From Deltaproteobacteria bacterium (GTDB lineage Bacteria; Desulfobacterota; DSM-4660; Desulfatiglandales; HGW-15): 33,414 nt of DNA. The position numbers were made by a program, and so were the translations under genes. Shown piece by piece: positions 2,177 through 9,678 of this stretch. Under the pieces are notes generated by a model that was given only the letters and a program-made list of their open reading frames with translations, did no database searches and was not told where the DNA came from. Each line of letters opens with the position of its first letter. Position 1 is the stretch's first letter. The DNA is taken from NCBI GenBank assembly GCA_016931115.1, contig JAFGFM010000179.1:1-33414 (forward strand), read 5' to 3'.

Positions 2177-2617
2177 TTATCTGGTTTGCCCCTTTTCACA
2201 GTTCTTACAGATGCCATCTATGCGCACCTCCATCTTATCTACCCTGCCTGGGAATATCTTCATGAAGGTATCTGCATCCACCTTTAAACTGTCCGGGCTC
2301 AGGCAGACCATCTGCCCGCAGCTTTTACAGTAAAAATGGGGGTGGGGTTTATGATTTTCATTTGGCGCAAGGCCGTAATAAAATGCCCTGCCGCCAGTGC
2401 TGATGCGTTCTGCAACATGGTGATCAACAAGCAGGTCAAGTATCCTGTATACTGTTACCTGGTTTATGGCGCCTGAACGTTCAATAATCTTATAGATATC
2501 TGCGGCTGAAAGAGGGAAGGGGTTGCTCCCGATCACCTCAAGAACAGCTATGCGGTTTGAGCTGGCCTCAAGCCCTGCCTTTATAAGCATCTCTTCATAA
2601 TTGCATTGATTGCACAT
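2177..2617 (-). CDS. zur: Fur-family transcriptional repressor, probable zinc regulator Zur
   Basis: A 146-residue Fur-family protein. The N-terminal winged helix contains the recognition-helix signature QVTVYRILDLL (residues 53-63). The C-terminal dimerisation domain carries HKPHPHF and two CxxC pairs (Cys97/Cys100, Cys137/Cys140) that form the structural zinc site of the family. A further CNQC occurs at residues 2-5. I assign it to zinc because it lies directly downstream of znuA-znuC-znuB on the same strand. It probably represses them, with zinc as co-repressor, through the inverted repeat at 5397-5419. An AAGG sits eight bases before the ATG. The 153-base gap from znuB is filled by an inverted-repeat element with heptads, so whether it is co-transcribed with znuB is open. 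Fur or PerR specificity cannot be excluded from sequence alone. Confidence 0.85.
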   Translation of the reverse strand: MCNQCNYEEMLIKAGLEASSNRIAVLEVIGSNPFPLSAADIYKIIERSGAINQVTVYRILDLLVDHHVAERISTGGRAFYYGLAPNENHKPHPHFYCKSCGQMVCLSPDSLKVDADTFMKIFPGRVDKMEVRIDGICKNCEKGQTR

Positions 2618-2641
2618 AAGCTAACCTTATTTTAAATACTT

Positions 2642-2754
2642 TTTTCACCACGGAGAGCAAAGAGCTGAAGGCTCAAGGCTGAAAGCTCAAGGCTCAAGGC
2701 TCAAAGCTCAAGGCTCAAAAATCTTTGCGAACTTAGCGACCTTTGTGGTGAAAA
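2642..2754. repeat. 113-bp element with 10-bp terminal inverted repeats enclosing heptads
   Basis: TTTTCACCAC (2642-2651) and GTGGTGAAAA (2745-2754) are perfect inverted repeats. They enclose a tandem array and fill most of the gap between znuB and zur. There is no coding capacity. It could be a miniature mobile element or a dispersed intergenic hairpin; I do not see an obvious target-site duplication. Confidence 0.55.
2664..2719. repeat. Tandem array of eight heptads GCTSAAR
   Basis: Eight consecutive 7-base units run without a break: GCTGAAG, GCTCAAG, GCTGAAA, GCTCAAG, GCTCAAG, GCTCAAA, GCTCAAG, GCTCAAA. The same words recur, in reverse complement, at 28583-28657 and as three degenerate units at 355-375. 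Confidence 0.85.
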
Positions 2755-2770
2755 CTCCTGATTTATATAA

Positions 2771-3586
2771 CTAAAACCTTAAGATAATCCTTACCCTGTC
2801 TAATATTAATGAAAATATAAACGCAATACCTGAAACCATTATAATAGATGCCCCTGATGTCAGGTTGTACTGGTATGAGATCAGAAGGCCTGTTACTGTA
2901 AAAACCGCACCGATCAGACCTGAAACAACCATCATCTGAAATAGTGATTTTACATATTTTTCCGCAATAAAGGGGGGTATGGTCAAGAGTGCAATTACAA
3001 GGATGAGCCCCACTATCTGTATTAGCAGTACGATTGTTATGGCAAGCATCCCTATCAGCCCAAAATAGATCTTTACTACAGGCACACCCCTTGTCTTGGC
3101 AAATTCCTCATCATATGACATGGCAAGGAGCTCCTTGTAAAAGAGCCTTGCAAGTATGATCATAAGCAGAGCTATTATGAGCATGATATAAATATCATTT
3201 CTGGTAACAGTAAGGATGCTGCCAAAGAGATAGCTCATAAGGTCAGCATTATAGCCGGGTGTTATATCTATCATGATAATGCCAAAGGCCATGCCGATGG
3301 CCCAGATAACGCCTATTATGGTATCAGCGCGGTGTTTTGCAGTATGGCTTACAAGGGCCATTATCATTGCGGCAAAAAATGAAAAGCCCATTGTGCATGG
3401 TAAATATGGCCATTTAAGGTAAAATGCAAGCCCCACACCCCCGTAGGCAGCGTGTGCTATTCCGCCAGATAAAAAGACTATACGGTTTACCACCACAAGG
3501 GTCCCCATGATGCCGCAGATTATGCTTGCTACAAGGCCTGCAATTAGGGCGTTTTGTATAAAATCAAACTGAAGGGCTTCCAGCAT
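2771..3586 (-). CDS. znuB: Zinc ABC transporter, membrane permease ZnuB
   Basis: A 271-residue hydrophobic protein of the ABC-3 family, the inner-membrane channel for zinc or manganese import. It has about eight membrane segments, beginning with the first near residues 14-33. The segment GGIAHAAYGGVGLAFYL (about 41-57) and the EEFAKTRGVPV coupling-helix region (about 160-170) are typical. It follows znuC after a single base, and GAGGTG lies seven bases before its ATG, inside the end of znuC, which suggests translational coupling. It works with ZnuC and ZnuA. Zinc rather than manganese specificity is inferred from the Fur-family neighbour and the histidine-rich loop in ZnuA. Confidence 0.92.
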   Translation of the reverse strand: MLEALQFDFIQNALIAGLVASIICGIMGTLVVVNRIVFLSGGIAHAAYGGVGLAFYLKWPYLPCTMGFSFFAAMIMALVSHTAKHRADTIIGVIWAIGMAFGIIMIDITPGYNADLMSYLFGSILTVTRNDIYIMLIIALLMIILARLFYKELLAMSYDEEFAKTRGVPVVKIYFGLIGMLAITIVLLIQIVGLILVIALLTIPPFIAEKYVKSLFQMMVVSGLIGAVFTVTGLLISYQYNLTSGASIIMVSGIAFIFSLILDRVRIILRF

Positions 3587-3587
3587 A

Positions 3588-4343
3588 TTATTTCACCTCA
3601 TGATGCTTAAGCACGCGGTGCGGCATGCCGTGGGCTATCAGTTCTACAGGGCATGTCTCTCCTGTGGAGCCGGCATACATATGCTCCAGCATCGCACCTG
3701 TGATCTCTGCCTGGTTATGGTAATAAAGCTGTTTGTTCACGCATGCCACTGATTTTACATAGCGTGAAATAAGGAGCAGGTCATGGCTTACAAGTAAAAT
3801 CGTAATGTCATTATTAAGCTCCTTGAGCAGCCTGTAAAAATCGGCCTGACCTTTTGCATCTATGCTCGCTGTGGGTTCATCCAGTAGCAGTAGTTTAGGC
3901 CCTGAAACAAGGGCCCTTGCGATAAATACCCTCTGGCGCTGTCCACCGGAAAGGGTACCTATTTTTCTATCTGCATATTCATCCATCTCCATACGCGCAA
4001 GGGCAGCCATGGCCTTTGAACGATCCGCCCCGGTATCAATATTGATCATCCCCATAAGTACTACATCCAGGGCAGAAACAGGAAATGACCTGTTTACATG
4101 TACATTCTGTGGTACATAACCGATGGCTCTTAATGCCTTTTGCGGGGGCTTTCCATCAACAAGTATACTGCCCTTCTGAGGGGTAAGGAGCCCCAGAATC
4201 AGTTTAAGCAGCGTGGTTTTACCCCCACCGTTTGGACCGATAACGGCGACAAAATCCCCATGCGGGATCTGTAAATTCACATCCTGGAGCACAGTCTCCT
4301 TTTCAAAGGAGAAATCACAATCATTTATTTCAATTACGGGCAT
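3588..4343 (-). CDS. znuC: Zinc ABC transporter, ATP-binding protein ZnuC
   Basis: A 251-residue ABC ATPase that powers zinc import through ZnuB. Walker A is GPNGGGKTT (about residues 36-44), the Q-loop is YVPQN, the ABC signature is LSGGQRQRV, Walker B is KLLLLDEPT, and the switch histidine is in LLVSHDL. The C-terminal tail after residue 210 is rich in His and Cys, as in many zinc transporter ATPases. An AGGGA ribosome binding site overlaps the znuA stop codon, ten bases before the ATG. It lies between znuA and znuB in one operon. Confidence 0.94.
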   Translation of the reverse strand: MPVIEINDCDFSFEKETVLQDVNLQIPHGDFVAVIGPNGGGKTTLLKLILGLLTPQKGSILVDGKPPQKALRAIGYVPQNVHVNRSFPVSALDVVLMGMINIDTGADRSKAMAALARMEMDEYADRKIGTLSGGQRQRVFIARALVSGPKLLLLDEPTASIDAKGQADFYRLLKELNNDITILLVSHDLLLISRYVKSVACVNKQLYYHNQAEITGAMLEHMYAGSTGETCPVELIAHGMPHRVLKHHEVK

Positions 4344-4353
4344 CTATTTGTCC

Positions 4354-5253
4354 CTATTTTAATGCTTCCCTGAATTTATCCGCTACATTCCGCAGATTAG
4401 TTAACCACTCATATGCCATTGGATCGGCAAATATAACCTCTCCGCCTATCTCGCTCGCAACCACTTTTGCGCTTTTAACAGAAAACTGCGGCTGTGCAAA
4501 GATAACCTTTATATTGTTTTCCCTGGCATGGCTGATCAGTTCCTTCAGTTGTGCAGGTTTGGGCTCTTTACCCTCGATCTCAACAGGTACCTGCTCAAGG
4601 CCATAGTTCTCTGCAAAATAGCCCCAGGCCGGATGAAATACAATAAATTTCATGCCGGATTTTTCTTTAAACAGTGCCTTTAATTCTGCATCCAGCTGTT
4701 CAACACTGCTGATGAAGTTTTTGTAGTTTGCCTCATACTCATCCTTATGGGCAGGGTCAATTTCATTGAGCCCCTTCAGGATTGAGGCGGCCTGTATCTT
4801 TACAAGCGGGGGGGATAACCAGATATGCGGGTCAAGGCTGCGCTTTTCATGGCGCGCCTCTTTGCCAGCTTCTGAATGGCGATCTCCTTCATGATGATGA
4901 GATTTCATGGGTATCTTTTTAATACCCTCATCTATATGAACCACCTTGATCGTCGGGTTAATGGAGATGATTTTATCAAGGTTGGCCTCTTCAAACTCTA
5001 TGCCTGTGGCAAAATATAGCCTTGCGCCAGAAAGAGCTGCCATCTGCCTTGGCTTTGGCTCATAAGTGTGTGCATCAGCGCCGGTCGGCACCATTACCTG
5101 GCAATCCACAAAATCACCCCCTATCTGCTGAACAAAATATCTCTGGGGTTCTATGGTGACAAAGATTGATTGCCTGTCAGATGCCATGTTGATTGTACAG
5201 GTGCAGAGCAATATAAGTAATGAAAGATATAGTATCCTGCTCAACCGTTTCAA
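4354..5253 (-). CDS. znuA: Zinc ABC transporter, periplasmic binding protein ZnuA (TTG start)
   Basis: A 299-residue cluster A-I solute-binding protein that captures zinc in the periplasm. The likely metal ligands are His62 (GADAHTYEP), His143 (DPHIWLSP), His207 (FHPAWGYF) and Asp277 (FADPMAYEW). A histidine-rich loop with HHH and two further His lies at about 119-135, as in zinc-type members. The signal peptide is residues 1-24 (KRLSRILYL then a hydrophobic stretch). I choose the TTG at 5253-5251: a strong GGGAGG (5265-5260) precedes it by six bases and the product then begins as a normal signal peptide. Longer ATG starts up to 5316 have no comparable site and add an atypical leader. It is first in the znu operon, with a palindromic operator about 150 bases upstream. 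Confidence 0.9.
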   Translation of the reverse strand: MKRLSRILYLSLLILLCTCTINMASDRQSIFVTIEPQRYFVQQIGGDFVDCQVMVPTGADAHTYEPKPRQMAALSGARLYFATGIEFEEANLDKIISINPTIKVVHIDEGIKKIPMKSHHHEGDRHSEAGKEARHEKRSLDPHIWLSPPLVKIQAASILKGLNEIDPAHKDEYEANYKNFISSVEQLDAELKALFKEKSGMKFIVFHPAWGYFAENYGLEQVPVEIEGKEPKPAQLKELISHARENNIKVIFAQPQFSVKSAKVVASEIGGEVIFADPMAYEWLTNLRNVADKFREALK

Positions 5254-5396
5254 AGTTATCCTCCCGGTGTAAAACAACATATATTTAAGGATATTCATGC
5301 AACTCATTATCATCATATTAATAGTTTATTTCCCATAAAATAGTATTAAATATAAAGCTGTAATAATTTAAATTATGGAATATTTACTAATATAAT

Positions 5397-5419
5397 ATAA
5401 TGCAAAAATATTGCATTAT
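5397..5419. promoter_or_regulatory. Probable Zur operator, 9-5-9 inverted repeat
   Basis: ATAATGCAA (5397-5405) and TTGCATTAT (5411-5419) are perfect inverted repeats around AAATA. The site lies in the AT-rich 242-base gap between the znu operon (minus) and the Cys/His-rich protein and TonB receptor genes (plus). This position and form suit a Fur-family dimer that controls both arms. Assignment to Zur is inferred from context. Confidence 0.6.
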
Positions 5420-5495
5420 TTATATAAAGGCAATATAAATCTACAAAATAAATGCTATTGAAGGCTTAATTGTAGAGAGAGTCAATCAGGTCTAT

Positions 5496-5927
5496 GTGGT
5501 TAAGATGAATGATTACAAAATGAAATGTCAGATTATTATCAGTATGTTGGCTGCTCTCTTTTTAGCCTTATCTCCGCTTCTGCATGGCATACATCTTACC
5601 CTTTCATCACACCATCACAGAATATGCATGGCTGACTCCTCATGTAGGACAAAATCCTGTTGCCATGTATCCAATGAAACGCCTGATTGCAGGCAGGATT
5701 CTTTTCTAATAACCTCATCATTTCCAGGTCATGCTGATACGCATGACCCAAAAACATGTCCCTTCTGCATTCAGATTAACCAACTCCTGAAAAGCCAGTT
5801 TATTGCAACCTCTCAGGTTATTCTTTTTTTTACCAGATGCTTACATGAAGAGCCGGTCTCCTTTTTCAGGGGGATAATTAATGTTAGCTATAATAATATC
5901 CAACCGAGGGCGCCTCCTTTATCCTGA
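5496..5927 (+). CDS. Small Cys/His-rich exported protein, DUF2946-like
   Basis: A protein of up to 143 residues with an N-terminal hydrophobic segment (about 11-30, IIISMLAALFLALSPLLHG) that reads as a signal peptide. The mature part is rich in metal-binding residues: SHHHRICMAD, SCCH, and a TCPFC motif near residues 87-91. It ends in RAPPLS. The CPFC motif, size and the C-terminal RAPP remind me of the DUF2946 family, small proteins often beside metal-transport genes; this is recognition by pattern only. The start is uncertain: GTG at 5496 or ATG at 5505 or 5520, with a weak AGG at 5488. It lies between the putative Zur operator and a TonB-dependent receptor, 75 bases upstream of the latter. 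I infer a periplasmic role in zinc handling, unproven. Confidence 0.72.
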   Translation: MVKMNDYKMKCQIIISMLAALFLALSPLLHGIHLTLSSHHHRICMADSSCRTKSCCHVSNETPDCRQDSFLITSSFPGHADTHDPKTCPFCIQINQLLKSQFIATSQVILFFTRCLHEEPVSFFRGIINVSYNNIQPRAPPLS

Positions 5928-6002
5928 TAGTTAAAAATTAAAACATCAATTTTGTTAATATACTTTTTTACATACATTTATCAGTAAATAAAGGAGTCTT
6001 GC

Positions 6003-8081
6003 ATGTTTCGTATAAAAAGAACGCTATCAGTTTCTTTGCTTTTTACTTTGTTGTGTTTCAGCCTTTCAGGCAAAGAAAATGATGTAAAAATAGAAGATAA
6101 TTATCAGGAAAAGGAGACCTTTGAGCTTGCCCGCGTAGTAGTCATGGGAAAGGCCATGGATTATAGAAATAGTGAAATCGATGGCCAGGTGCTGTTAACA
6201 CACAAGGTGGTTGATCTGGCAGAGATATTGTCCGATGAAATGGCCGAAGTGCAGATGATAAGAAAAAGCGGTTATGGAAATGAGGTCTCCATACGTGGTT
6301 TCGGGCAGGAGAATATCAAGGTACTTATTGATGAAGGGATAGTGGAAGGGGCATGTGGAAGCAGGAAAGACCCGGCCCTTTCTCACATAAATATGCTGAC
6401 AGTGCAGGAGATTGTTGTAAAGCAGGGCCCGTTTGACGTGACAAAACCGGGGTATCTTGGCGGATATATCAATGTTATCACCAAAAAGCCGGATTCAGGG
6501 TTTAGCGGCGAGATAGTATCAAGGGCCGGAAGTTACAATTTTACAAGCAATGGCTTTATGGTTACAGGTGGAAACGAATATGTCAAAGGGCTGCTTGGTT
6601 ATAATTATTCAAAATCAGGGCAGTATGAAGATGGCGCTGGAAATGGCCTATCGCAGGTACGGGATGGCCTTGCAGCATCCTATAATAATAGAGGTATAAA
6701 TGCAGATTCATTTAAAAAGCATGACCTTTGGGGCAAGATAAATATAACACCCTCTGAAAAGTTGTCTCTGCTGCTTGAACATACATACGGGGAGGCCAGG
6801 GATATCCTTACACCCAGGGTGGTATTTGATACTGAAAAAGAGATTAACAGGCTCAGCAAGATAAGCCTGGCCATTGATAATGCAGGCAGTTTTTCCGATA
6901 ATCTTACACTATCCGTTTACAGAAATGCCATAGAGCATTATCCCTTCCAGGGTTTCAGAAATGTGCCTGTGCCCAAAAATAATCTGGTAGAGTCGGCTAT
7001 TACTGGCGGAGGCATCAGTAACATGGTTGAAACAGGGTATGCGGATATTATGTATGGTGTTGATATATATCACAGGGAGTGGTGGGGTGATGTCTACAAC
7101 AGCTTGACCGGGGCGCTTTTGAACGGCTACCTTATACCAAATGTTAAGAGCCTTAATATTGGCGCCTTTTTCAAGGCTGATAAAAGGATTGATAAATGGT
7201 CTATGGGCCTTGGTTTGAGATATGACAGGTTCAGGCAAAAGGCGGATGAAGAGCTTGTTTTTACACAGAGTGTTACCTCTTTAAATAAACAGACAGACTC
7301 GCTTCCTGGCGGTTATTTTATGGTTAAATATTATCTCCGCGACGGCATGATGTTATTCAGCGGGATAGGGCGCAGTCACAGGACCCCTACATCAGCAGAG
7401 CGTTATATACAGGGGGGCGCGACATTTTTTGGTAATCCCGGGCTTAATCCTGCATCCAATACTGAATATGATATGGGTATTACAATTGAAAACAAAAGAT
7501 GGGAGATCAGCGCAAAGACCTTTTATTCAAACCTGGATGATTTTATCTACCAGGAATTCAATTCTGCAGGGTATCAGAGCTATACGAATATAGATGCTCA
7601 TATTCTTGGAGGGGATATAAAATTCAGGTTGGATATTCATGATTCTTTGTCTCTGAATGGCGGGGTGGCATACCAGAGGGGCTACAAAGACAGTTTCCCT
7701 GATAATAACCGGGAAAAAGAGCTTGGACAGATTGCGCCACTCAAGACAAAGCTCTCTCTTGACTTTCACGGGGCAAGGTCATTTGATATTGATAATACAG
7801 AACTCTATTCCACCATAGAGTGGGTGCACTCTGAGGATGCTGATCATATTGATCAGGATGCGGGCGAGGTGCCCATTTCAGGCTGGGATATAATGAATAT
7901 AAGGATAGGATACAGGTATAAATCCGCAGTTATAAATTTAGGGATAGATAATGTGTTTGACAGGCTTTATACTGTAGCCAACTCCTACGAGTGGGATGTT
8001 ATAGGCGGAACCGGGGCAAACCCGGCAATAGTAAATGAACCGGGGAGGTTTATCTATGGAAGCCTGGCCTTTGCCTGGTAA
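6003..8081 (+). CDS. TonB-dependent outer-membrane receptor, probable zinc (or other metal) uptake
   Basis: A 692-residue TonB-dependent receptor. Signal peptide at residues 1-23. A likely TonB box region is [12 protein letters not shown] (about 40-51). The plug follows ([18 protein letters not shown], then [15 protein letters not shown]), and the rest is a 22-strand-type barrel ending in the aromatic FAW. The plug loop [12 protein letters not shown] (about 117-128) replaces the usual loop and offers Cys, Asp and His, which recalls metal-binding loops of copper- and zinc-type receptors. A strong AAAGGAG lies eight bases before the ATG. It is downstream of the Cys/His-rich protein and divergent from znuACB, so I infer it brings zinc across the outer membrane under the same regulator. 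Substrate is not proven; copper is the main alternative. Confidence 0.88.
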
Positions 8082-8218
8082 TACTGGGAAAATATAAAAG
8101 AAGATGGCGTCATATTTGACTTCATAATGTCGGGAAAATGTCAGTCAGAAAAATGGCGATATGCGTGCCATGTTAGTAAGATATTGAAAATACAATATAA
8201 AATGATTATTGATAGCTC

Positions 8219-8234
8219 TGGCACGCACATTGCT
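8219..8234 (+). promoter_or_regulatory. Sigma-54 (-24/-12) promoter
   Basis: TGGCACG (8219-8225), four bases, then TTGCT (8230-8234) match the RpoN consensus TGGCACG-N4-TTGCW exactly, with the GG and GC doublets ten bases apart. The predicted start of transcription is near 8245. Upstream there are two inverted repeats that could serve an activator: ATGGC-N9-GCCAT (8153-8171) and ATATTG-N6-CAATAT (8181-8198). The product is the structured RNA candidate that follows, since a terminator at 8371-8404 precedes the next gene. Confidence 0.75.
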
Positions 8235-8244
8235 ATATATAAAG

Positions 8245-8404
8245 TCAAAATCAATAGATGCTTCTCGGGTGCGCGTGAATCTTTTTTGATGTGCTACTCA
8301 ATTTATAAAAAAATTTATTAAGAGATTCGCACTCCTAAAATAACGGCTTTCCGGGAAGCATATATTGATAAAAAAGAGGAGATATACATCTCCTCTTTTT
8401 TTTT
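8245..8404 (+). ncRNA. Candidate sigma-54-dependent structured small RNA
   Basis: The stretch between the sigma-54 promoter and the terminator is strongly self-complementary. An outer stem pairs 8251-8268 with 8351-8368: 16 Watson-Crick pairs, one G-U and one mismatch over 18 positions, plus one more A-T pair at 8250/8369. Inside it GTGC (8269-8272) pairs with GCAC (8329-8332) and GAATCT (8277-8282) with AGATTC (8323-8328), with a four-base bulge. The outer stem starts about six bases after the predicted start site and ends just before the terminator. There is no reasonable reading frame in it: a six-codon ORF at 8258 has no ribosome binding site. I do not recognise it as a known RNA family. 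An alternative is a hairpin-type mobile element that happens to follow a promoter. Confidence 0.6.
8371..8404 (+). terminator. Rho-independent terminator
   Basis: GAGGAGAT (8376-8383) and ATCTCCTC (8388-8395) form a perfect 8-bp stem with loop ATAC, flanked by five A before and nine T after, so the stem can extend through A-T pairs. The T-tract makes it an efficient terminator on the plus strand. The A-tract would serve less well on the minus strand. Confidence 0.88.
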
Positions 8405-8511: not shown

Positions 8512-9678
8512 ATGATAGAGAATAATGATGTGCACCGGCTCAGTTATAATGGAAAAGAGATAATAATCATCGGGACTGCCCATGTCTCACAGAAGAGTGC
8601 TGACCTTGTGCGTGAGGTAATAGAGGATGAAAAACCTGATACAGTCTGTATAGAACTGTGCGACTCAAGATTTCAGGCAATGACTCAGAAACAGAAATGG
8701 CAGGATACTGACCTTTACAAGATTATTAAGGAAAAAAAGGCCACTCTGCTTTTAGCCAATTTCATGCTTGCCTCCATACAGAAAAAGATCGGTAAAAAAC
8801 TGGGGATCAAGCCGGGTGAAGAGATGGCTCAGGCCATAAGGTCTGCTGAGTCAGCCGGTTCAAAAATACACCTGGCTGATCGTGACATAAGGACTACTCT
8901 CTCAAGGGCGTGGAAGACAATAACCTTCTGGGAAAAGTTAAAGCTCATGGCGCAGTTTTCCGGGTCACTAATCGGTGTTGATGATATAAGCGAGGAGGAG
9001 GTGGAAAAGCTCAAGGATAAGGATATGCTTGAGACCCTCCTTTCTGAGATAGGCGAAACGCAGCCCAAGCTTAAGACAATACTGATAGATGAAAGAGATA
9101 AATATCTTACAGAAAAGATTCGGACAGCACCTGGTGAAAGAATAGTTGCTGTTGTCGGTGCAGGTCATGTGCCGGGAATAAAGGCAGGATGGGAAGCCAG
9201 TATTGATTTAAATGAACTGGATAAAAAACCTGAAAAGGGGCACTGGGGTACGATTTTGGCCTGGGGTATACCTGCCCTCATAATAGCCATGTTTGCGGCA
9301 AGTTATTTTATGGGAGGTAAGGATGTAGGCACTGATATGATCCTGTTCTGGCTTGTTGCCAATCTGGTTTTTACTGCAATAGGCGCAGCAGTTGCATTTG
9401 CCCATCCTTTTACCATTATAGCTGCCGCTCTTTCCTCGCCATTTACCTCCCTGCACCCACTGATAGCCTCTGGCTGGGTTGCAGGTATTGTTCAGGTCTT
9501 AATAAGCAAACCAAAGGTGAGGGATTTTGAGTCTCTGCCTGATGATATTACCTCTGTTAAAGGGTTCTGGCATAATAAGATAACAAGGATACTCCTTGTG
9601 GTTGTGCTCACTAACCTGGGAACAACTTTTGGGAATTTTCTGTCGATAATTATTTTTCCTTTAAAGACCTTCTGGTAG
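8512..9678 (+). CDS. TraB-family (TraB/PrgY/GumN) membrane protein
   Basis: A 388-residue TraB-domain protein. The N-terminal soluble domain has the family motifs GTAHVS (residues 21-26), the CIELCDSRF segment (46-54) and GAGHVPG near residue 220. These carry the conserved His, Glu and Arg that resemble a metalloprotease-type or Tiki-like site. The C-terminal half has four to five hydrophobic membrane segments (from about residue 245), so it is an inner-membrane protein. I start at the ATG at 8512 because AGGA lies eight bases upstream and the product begins just before the domain. An upstream in-frame start at 8455 adds a leader with no support. Bacterial members of this architecture are of unknown function; in Enterococcus, PrgY and TraB limit peptide pheromone activity. 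It is a single gene between a terminator and the kinase. Confidence 0.86.
   Translation: MIENNDVHRLSYNGKEIIIIGTAHVSQKSADLVREVIEDEKPDTVCIELCDSRFQAMTQKQKWQDTDLYKIIKEKKATLLLANFMLASIQKKIGKKLGIKPGEEMAQAIRSAESAGSKIHLADRDIRTTLSRAWKTITFWEKLKLMAQFSGSLIGVDDISEEEVEKLKDKDMLETLLSEIGETQPKLKTILIDERDKYLTEKIRTAPGERIVAVVGAGHVPGIKAGWEASIDLNELDKKPEKGHWGTILAWGIPALIIAMFAASYFMGGKDVGTDMILFWLVANLVFTAIGAAVAFAHPFTIIAAALSSPFTSLHPLIASGWVAGIVQVLISKPKVRDFESLPDDITSVKGFWHNKITRILLVVVLTNLGTTFGNFLSIIIFPLKTFW

Follow-up and report, generated by a model that had tools for sequence, protein, structure and literature searches.

A predicted sigma-54-dependent hairpin RNA of Desulfobacterota and its possible role as a protein decoy

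Described RNAs of comparable design

To our knowledge, sigma-54-controlled small RNAs (sRNAs) have been described mainly from gammaproteobacteria. The Qrr1-5 RNAs are under LuxO/sigma-54 control and act by Hfq-dependent base pairing, while the CA motifs of CrcZ and CrcY bind Hfq/Crc. In E. coli, GlmY is transcribed from a sigma-54 promoter with upstream activator sites and is activated by QseF (PMC6075780); it is a strongly structured sRNA that serves as a decoy of the RNA-binding protein RapZ (PMC7073468). CrcZ and CrcY of Pseudomonas and Azotobacter are CbrB/RpoN-dependent, paralogous stand-alone sRNAs that sequester a regulator (PMC6292655), and Qrr1-5 form a paralogous sRNA family in Vibrio (PMC8043402). 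Pxr of Myxococcus xanthus is a structured sRNA with a conserved, functionally important stem (PMC5684412). In Listeria, one RNA element, that of the Rli55/ANTAR hairpins, occurs in mRNA leaders and also in a free RNA by which the binding protein is sequestered (reviewed in PMC7602753).

The locus described here lies in a 33,414-nt stretch of a deltaproteobacterial genome (the window), in which positions 8245-8404 (+) are predicted to encode an sRNA. This RNA resembles GlmY in its sigma-54 promoter, its strong structure and the decoy role that we propose for it, but it forms a single long hairpin with no Rfam-level relationship to GlmY, and the GlmY/GlmZ models gave no match in Rfam scans. No rapZ-like gene was recognized by eye in the rpoN cluster of the same genome. 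With CrcZ/CrcY it shares the design of stand-alone sRNAs in paralogous copies with (here predicted) RpoN dependence; in contrast to their CA motifs for Hfq/Crc, Hfq was not detected here. Qrr1-5 are likewise paralogous and sigma-54 controlled, but they pair in an Hfq-dependent manner and the RNA described here has no Rfam match. Pxr is also a structured sRNA from the former Deltaproteobacteria, yet it comprises three stem-loops, was described in myxobacteria and has no detected Rfam-level relation to the window RNA. Rli55 is similar in the use of one element as leader and free RNA (here proposed), whereas the ANTAR element consists of two short hairpins and is unrelated in architecture. Finally, 6S RNA (RF00013) is also a long imperfect hairpin, but copies matched by our covariance model (R1) are about 100 nt long, occur in multiple copies and do not match RF00013. 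Replacement of 6S RNA by the new RNA was considered and rejected, as the two coexist in several genomes: RF00013 has matches in 10 genomes of family f4, and several of these also carry the new RNA. The 17 genomes in the family to which the window belongs, f1 (G000-G016), gave no RF00013 match; their 6S RNA may be too diverged for the model.

Promoter, fold and terminator of the window RNA

An exact -24/-12 (sigma-54, RpoN) element, TGGCACGCACATTGCT, occupies positions 8219-8234 (+), as a preliminary description of this DNA had claimed, and is the only site without mismatches in the window; promoter spacing places the predicted transcription start at about 8245. The 5.18-Mb genome contains 48 matches to the strict pattern TGGCAYN5TTGCW and 0 to a reversed control pattern, and most of the 48 sites are intergenic. 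Reading of downstream open reading frames (ORFs) by eye placed amtB, glnA and motA, which are typical RpoN targets, just 3' of several strict sites, and the -24/-12 motif is therefore informative in this genome. RpoN itself is encoded there (PF04552 match, E = 2.6e-64), in a cluster read by eye as lptC-lptA-lptB-rpoN-hpf-ptsN-like. Separately, 46 further strict sites (L319-L364), many of them read as lying before amtB, glnA, motA, motB, pilin-like and sensor-kinase genes, can serve as a list of probable members of the RpoN regulon.

Upstream of the promoter, two inverted repeats are present as previously noted, at 8153-8171 (ATGGC-N9-GCCAT, centered at about -83 from the predicted start) and 8181-8198 (ATATTG-N6-CAATAT, centered at about -55), and they are possible sites of an activator (enhancer-binding protein). 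In a sister species of the same genus (G001), the repeats are 89% (17 of 19 bases) and 94% (17 of 18 bases) identical, against 55% for the adjoining stretch 8199-8218, as might be expected of binding sites. The count of inverted repeats upstream is only marginally above chance (P = 0.056), the second repeat was not visible at orthologous loci of other genera, and no similar repeats or shared activator motif were found upstream of the remaining strict sigma-54 sites in this genome. Within the genus, the promoter and RNA appear more constrained at the DNA level than the neighboring genes: identity to the sister species is 26 of 26 bases from the promoter to the predicted start (8219-8244), 96.8% across the RNA hairpin and 94% across the terminator, compared to 88-92% in flanking genes and 74% at 8085-8150.

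The predicted transcript of about 160 nt (8245-8404, +), whose start is set by promoter spacing and whose end is set by the terminator, folds at -55.4 kcal/mol (z = -7.55, with 0 of 200 shuffles equal). Without the terminator (8245-8370), the hairpin still reaches z = -5.6 (0 of 300 shuffles equal). The structure is a long imperfect hairpin of 120 nt at 8250-8369 (+; RNAfold, -38.3 kcal/mol) that begins about 5 bases past the predicted start and comprises a basal stem (8250-8256/8363-8369, +) and an outer stem (8258-8269/8350-8361, +) enclosing inner stems. The pairing earlier described between 8251-8268 and 8351-8368 was confirmed, with 16 Watson-Crick pairs and one G-U pair among its 18 positions (17 paired in all). 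The conserved family core, GCUUCUCGGGUGCGCGUGAAUCUUUU...AAAUAACGGCUUUCCGGGAAGC, extends from 8260 to 8359 (+) and matches R1 with 78.3 bits (E = 5.2e-14 in its own genome), a score for a copy that is itself part of the seed alignment. Inside the core is an asymmetric internal loop. The 5' side of this loop with adjoining bases (8275-8281, +) falls in near-invariant columns of A1 and A2 and reads GUGAAUC in the window and GUGCAUC in most relatives; the 3' side with the adjoining stem, AAUAACGGC (8339-8347, +), includes AACGGC, which is near-invariant in A1 and A2.

The hairpin is followed at 8371-8404 (+) by an intrinsic terminator, AAAAAAGAGGAGAU-AUAC-AUCUCCUCUUUUUU, whose 14-bp stem folds separately and precedes a U run, in agreement with the strong terminator described before. 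A coding function is not apparent: the sole plus-strand ORF of at least 60 amino acids that overlaps the RNA (8127-8321) begins upstream of the promoter, which bears out the earlier view that the stretch has no credible ORF, and length differences among copies are not multiples of three, which counts against a coding ORF. We consider it very probable, from comparative sequence evidence, that 8245-8404 is a real sigma-54-dependent RNA gene.

A hairpin RNA family and its genomic settings

A DNA-level search identified one other full-length copy (97% identical, same genus), and many relatives share short conserved blocks that correspond to the two arms of a single hairpin, GCUUCUCGGGUGYGCGUGCAUCUUUU and AACGGCAUNNNGGGAAGC. 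R1 found six diverged members in the window's own genome (G000), with 54-73% identity. The RNA had been proposed to be a stand-alone, structured product of a sigma-54-driven gene; promoter, terminator, covariation and Rfam searches support such a gene, but the six members show that it is not a lone unit. Of 85 genomes of the order, 55 carry members, as do 14 of 395 genomes sampled across the phylum; 9 of these 14 are from this order. The relatives are mostly metagenome-assembled genomes (MAGs), in which missing copies are weak evidence. Altogether, the genomes searched hold more than 130 copies, some under sigma-54 and many apparently not. Named genomes with matches include Desulfatibacillum sp. 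MAG, Eth-SRB1, Eth-SRB2, "Ca. Desulfaltia," "Ca. Desulfatibia vada," Desulfosarcina sp. MAG and the Olavius Delta 1 symbiont. When 84,980 species genomes were scanned with a pattern for the 5' arm alone, the matches listed fell almost only in Desulfobacterales/Desulfobacteraceae and other former Deltaproteobacteria; among the matches listed, 91 of 118 also carry the 3' arm in a strict test, and a match in Amphibacillus that lacks this arm looks like chance.

The RNA had been claimed to belong to no known family, and at the gathering score of Rfam 15 neither the window nor 19 relatives gave a match; relaxed searches by E-value threshold yielded weak, chance-level matches only. The open literature, as distinct from subscription papers, contained precedents for sigma-54 sRNAs but no paper recognized as describing this RNA. 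The window RNA belongs to a large and apparently undescribed family of hairpin RNAs across sulfate-reducing Desulfobacterales and some other Desulfobacterota, although lack of a match in Rfam or open papers is not proof that nobody has described it.

The covariation anticipated in relatives is present in the outer stem. Across 101 distinct aligned copies, 94.9% of the cells in its 16 pairs are paired, compared to 35-63% with the partner slid by 1-3 columns, in an alignment fitted to (and thus favoring) this stem. Both sides have changed in 11 of the 16 pairs, with 0 of 500 shuffles as good; shared ancestry inflates such shuffle comparisons, an effect to which the count of pairs changed on both sides is the least sensitive of the measures. 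Between outer and inner stems, the lopsided internal loop is near-invariant (5' GUGCAUC, 3' UAACG), and the inner part varies in length, with some copies having only a short loop. Owing to this variation, the inner hairpin was missed by RNAalifold on large alignments, and a shuffled-energy test was used instead, in which the inner region of 127 copies folded better than chance (mean z of -1.55 versus -0.17 for control stretches). In orthologues at the locus described below, the hairpin is closed by an additional basal stem, about 7 pairs long, which is formed by different bases in G015, G003, G004 and G010. In family f4, several near-identical copies with flanks conserved around a short 53-nt core were observed (L154, L155, L150, L153, L165); two of them are in one genome, G052, and the copies may belong to a larger repeated unit.

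Promoters and terminators recur in the family, as judged by simple, hand-made scores. Of 136 distinct copies, 17 have a site with at least 10 of 11 -24/-12 consensus positions no more than 60 nt upstream, where the site frequency in the same loci predicts 0.36; in the window's genome this applies to 2 of 6 copies (about 0.001 expected). A strict terminator test succeeded downstream of 55 of 137 copies and 9 of 137 controls, while a relaxed scan (84 of 137 versus 58 of 136) discriminated poorly and is not counted as evidence. Compact promoter-hairpin-terminator units of the same design occur in two further MAGs, one of them a Desulfatibacillum sp.

Immediately downstream of the window RNA, and outside the RNA gene, traB (TraB/PrgY/GumN family; 8512-9678, +; PF01963, E = 2.6e-42) serves as a syntenic marker. 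It was confirmed 3' of the RNA in G000, G001, G015, G004 and G003 (five genomes of four genera). G010 holds a probable sixth traB-type locus, placed from its upstream genes as the contig ends before traB. The -24/-12 site is present at all six loci, and the conservation of both position and promoter argues for a stable gene and not a mobile hairpin. Several copies per genome would also be expected of a mobile hairpin or REP-like DNA element that landed behind a promoter by chance, and the preliminary description had named many near-identical, promoterless copies as the sign of such an element. The copies within the genome are instead well diverged, the same position is held across genera, sigma-54 promoters are retained, the arms covary as RNA, and 2.9 million viral contigs contained no exact match. 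This explanation is largely refuted by within-genome identity, synteny and kept promoters, and we give it almost no weight.

Upstream of the RNA, the window contains a zinc-uptake cluster (2177-8081) of a FUR-family regulator, an ABC-3 permease, a ZnuA-type binding protein and a TonB-dependent receptor, of which the FUR, ABC-3 and ZnuA families were confirmed. A new regulatory unit next to this zinc island had been suggested. However, sequence reading found cooC-like genes upstream of the orthologues in G015, G004, G003 and G010, and serC-like genes in three of these, and so the zinc genes are incidental neighbors, not a conserved partner, and a zinc connection was rejected.

The synteny with traB raises an alternative hypothesis, that the hairpin is a 5'-leader element by which transcripts continuing into the following gene (traB in this case) are attenuated or protected. 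Some family members do lie 20-60 nt before start codons. With gene names assigned by sequence reading, the distance from the end of the core to the next gene is 27 nt for phoH2 (G000), 55 nt for a universal stress protein gene (G001) and 47 nt for cheD (G021). In 12 genomes the core is found shortly upstream of a UPF0280-like gene, and in this group it runs directly into a U run, as an attenuator would. For the window RNA, however, cis control of traB is disfavored because a strong, separate terminator stands between the two, with a TTGACT/TTGACA element between terminator and traB, and most family members adjoin unrelated genes. A leader function is accordingly improbable as the general explanation. 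Some of the leader copies that run directly into a U run may themselves be short RNAs with their own terminator.

Two of these settings merit description in their own right. The member 27 nt before the PhoH2-like (PIN plus PhoH) start codon (L313, G000:C205:5000-12409; L037:1501-1585) is separated from it by a Shine-Dalgarno-like sequence and is the best cis-acting candidate in the window's genome. The syntenic group between nnr-like and UPF0280-like genes (L109, L078, L062, L065, L066 and seven more) has a core mostly followed at once by a U run, a strongly conserved inner hairpin, GAUCUUAAACCACUUAGGAGGGAAGAUU, and, in five members, -24/-12 sites of the type TGGCAGGRRTYTTGCA.

In 45 of 137 copies, the core is immediately preceded by another conserved RNA module of about 105 nt, D1 (e.g., L043:1598-1720 [-], L045:1396-1500 [+], L033:1598-1715 [-] and about 40 others). 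Its sequence is GUGCCACC-CAACUUCAACAC...AAACCAUGUGAUGGCC..GGCCUCCAAAGGUUA...GGGAGU..GGUGGCAC. One member searched at a relaxed threshold had no credible Rfam match, and a dedicated model (R2) finds D1 in 44 of 85 genomes, sometimes with only a short or degenerate core. D1 and sigma-54 sites are mutually exclusive (D1 in 0 of 17 sigma-54 copies; hypergeometric P = 0.0007, for related copies that are not independent). The frequency of D1 could suggest a riboswitch-like, ligand-sensing RNA, in which the core is the expression platform and the upstream module is the sensor in other members. Yet the window member lacks D1, no consistent gene class follows the core, and many copies stop at a terminator and have no attached gene, making this reading a little less probable still than a leader.

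A possible decoy for an RNA-binding protein

Hfq (PF17209) was not found in the window's genome, which is 98.5% complete, whereas five control genomes gave matches; classical Hfq-dependent pairing is therefore unlikely. Moreover, strict conservation in the RNA falls on a paired stem and its internal loop, an arrangement that fits recognition by a protein better than pairing with mRNA. A decoy role is proposed because the same hairpin also occurs close upstream of some start codons, and a core shared between leaders and free RNA fits a common protein-binding element. As the best explanation, we propose that RpoN-RNA polymerase, together with an enhancer-binding activator, transcribes 8245-8404 as a stand-alone sRNA whose internal loop and outer stem would be bound by a regulatory protein dedicated to them. 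The free RNA would then titrate this protein away from hairpins of the same type that closely precede certain genes, much as GlmY titrates RapZ or Rli55 titrates EutV. Taken as a whole, the proposal of an RpoN-driven, stand-alone sRNA that acts in trans without Hfq as a protein decoy has, in our estimate, a probability of roughly 0.45.

The variable apical loops could instead be base-pairing seeds. Under this hypothesis, the window RNA would be a sigma-54-dependent sRNA that pairs with mRNA independently of Hfq, its stem providing stability and its variable inner loop the seed. Variable seeds are frequent among base-pairing sRNAs, and the variability of the inner loop matches this pattern. The predicted stand-alone transcript with its terminator is equally suited to such a role, and many relatives have CUCC-type inner loops that resemble an anti-Shine-Dalgarno sequence (e.g., AUCUCCUAAA). 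Conversely, conserved sequence resides in the stem and internal loop and not in an exposed loop, the apical loop of the window RNA is A/U-rich and lacks CUCC, and Hfq was not detected. Base pairing is, on this evidence, a rather unlikely primary function, albeit one to be taken seriously.

Extended to the family, the decoy reading would imply an RNA regulator of wide reach in the Desulfobacterota, with an Hfq-independent network in sulfate-reducing Desulfobacterales in which paralogous hairpin RNAs, some under sigma-54 and others preceded by D1, share an RNA-binding protein, and the hairpin serves both as free decoy and as mRNA leader. We put this forward tentatively, with about one chance in three in mind. 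A whole structured RNA family without an Rfam 15 match is spread over the Desulfobacterales and offers an entry to post-transcriptional control in bacteria that are important for carbon and sulfur cycling in marine sediments. In these organisms, at least one of which has no detectable Hfq, the hairpin may act as bait for an RNA-binding protein.
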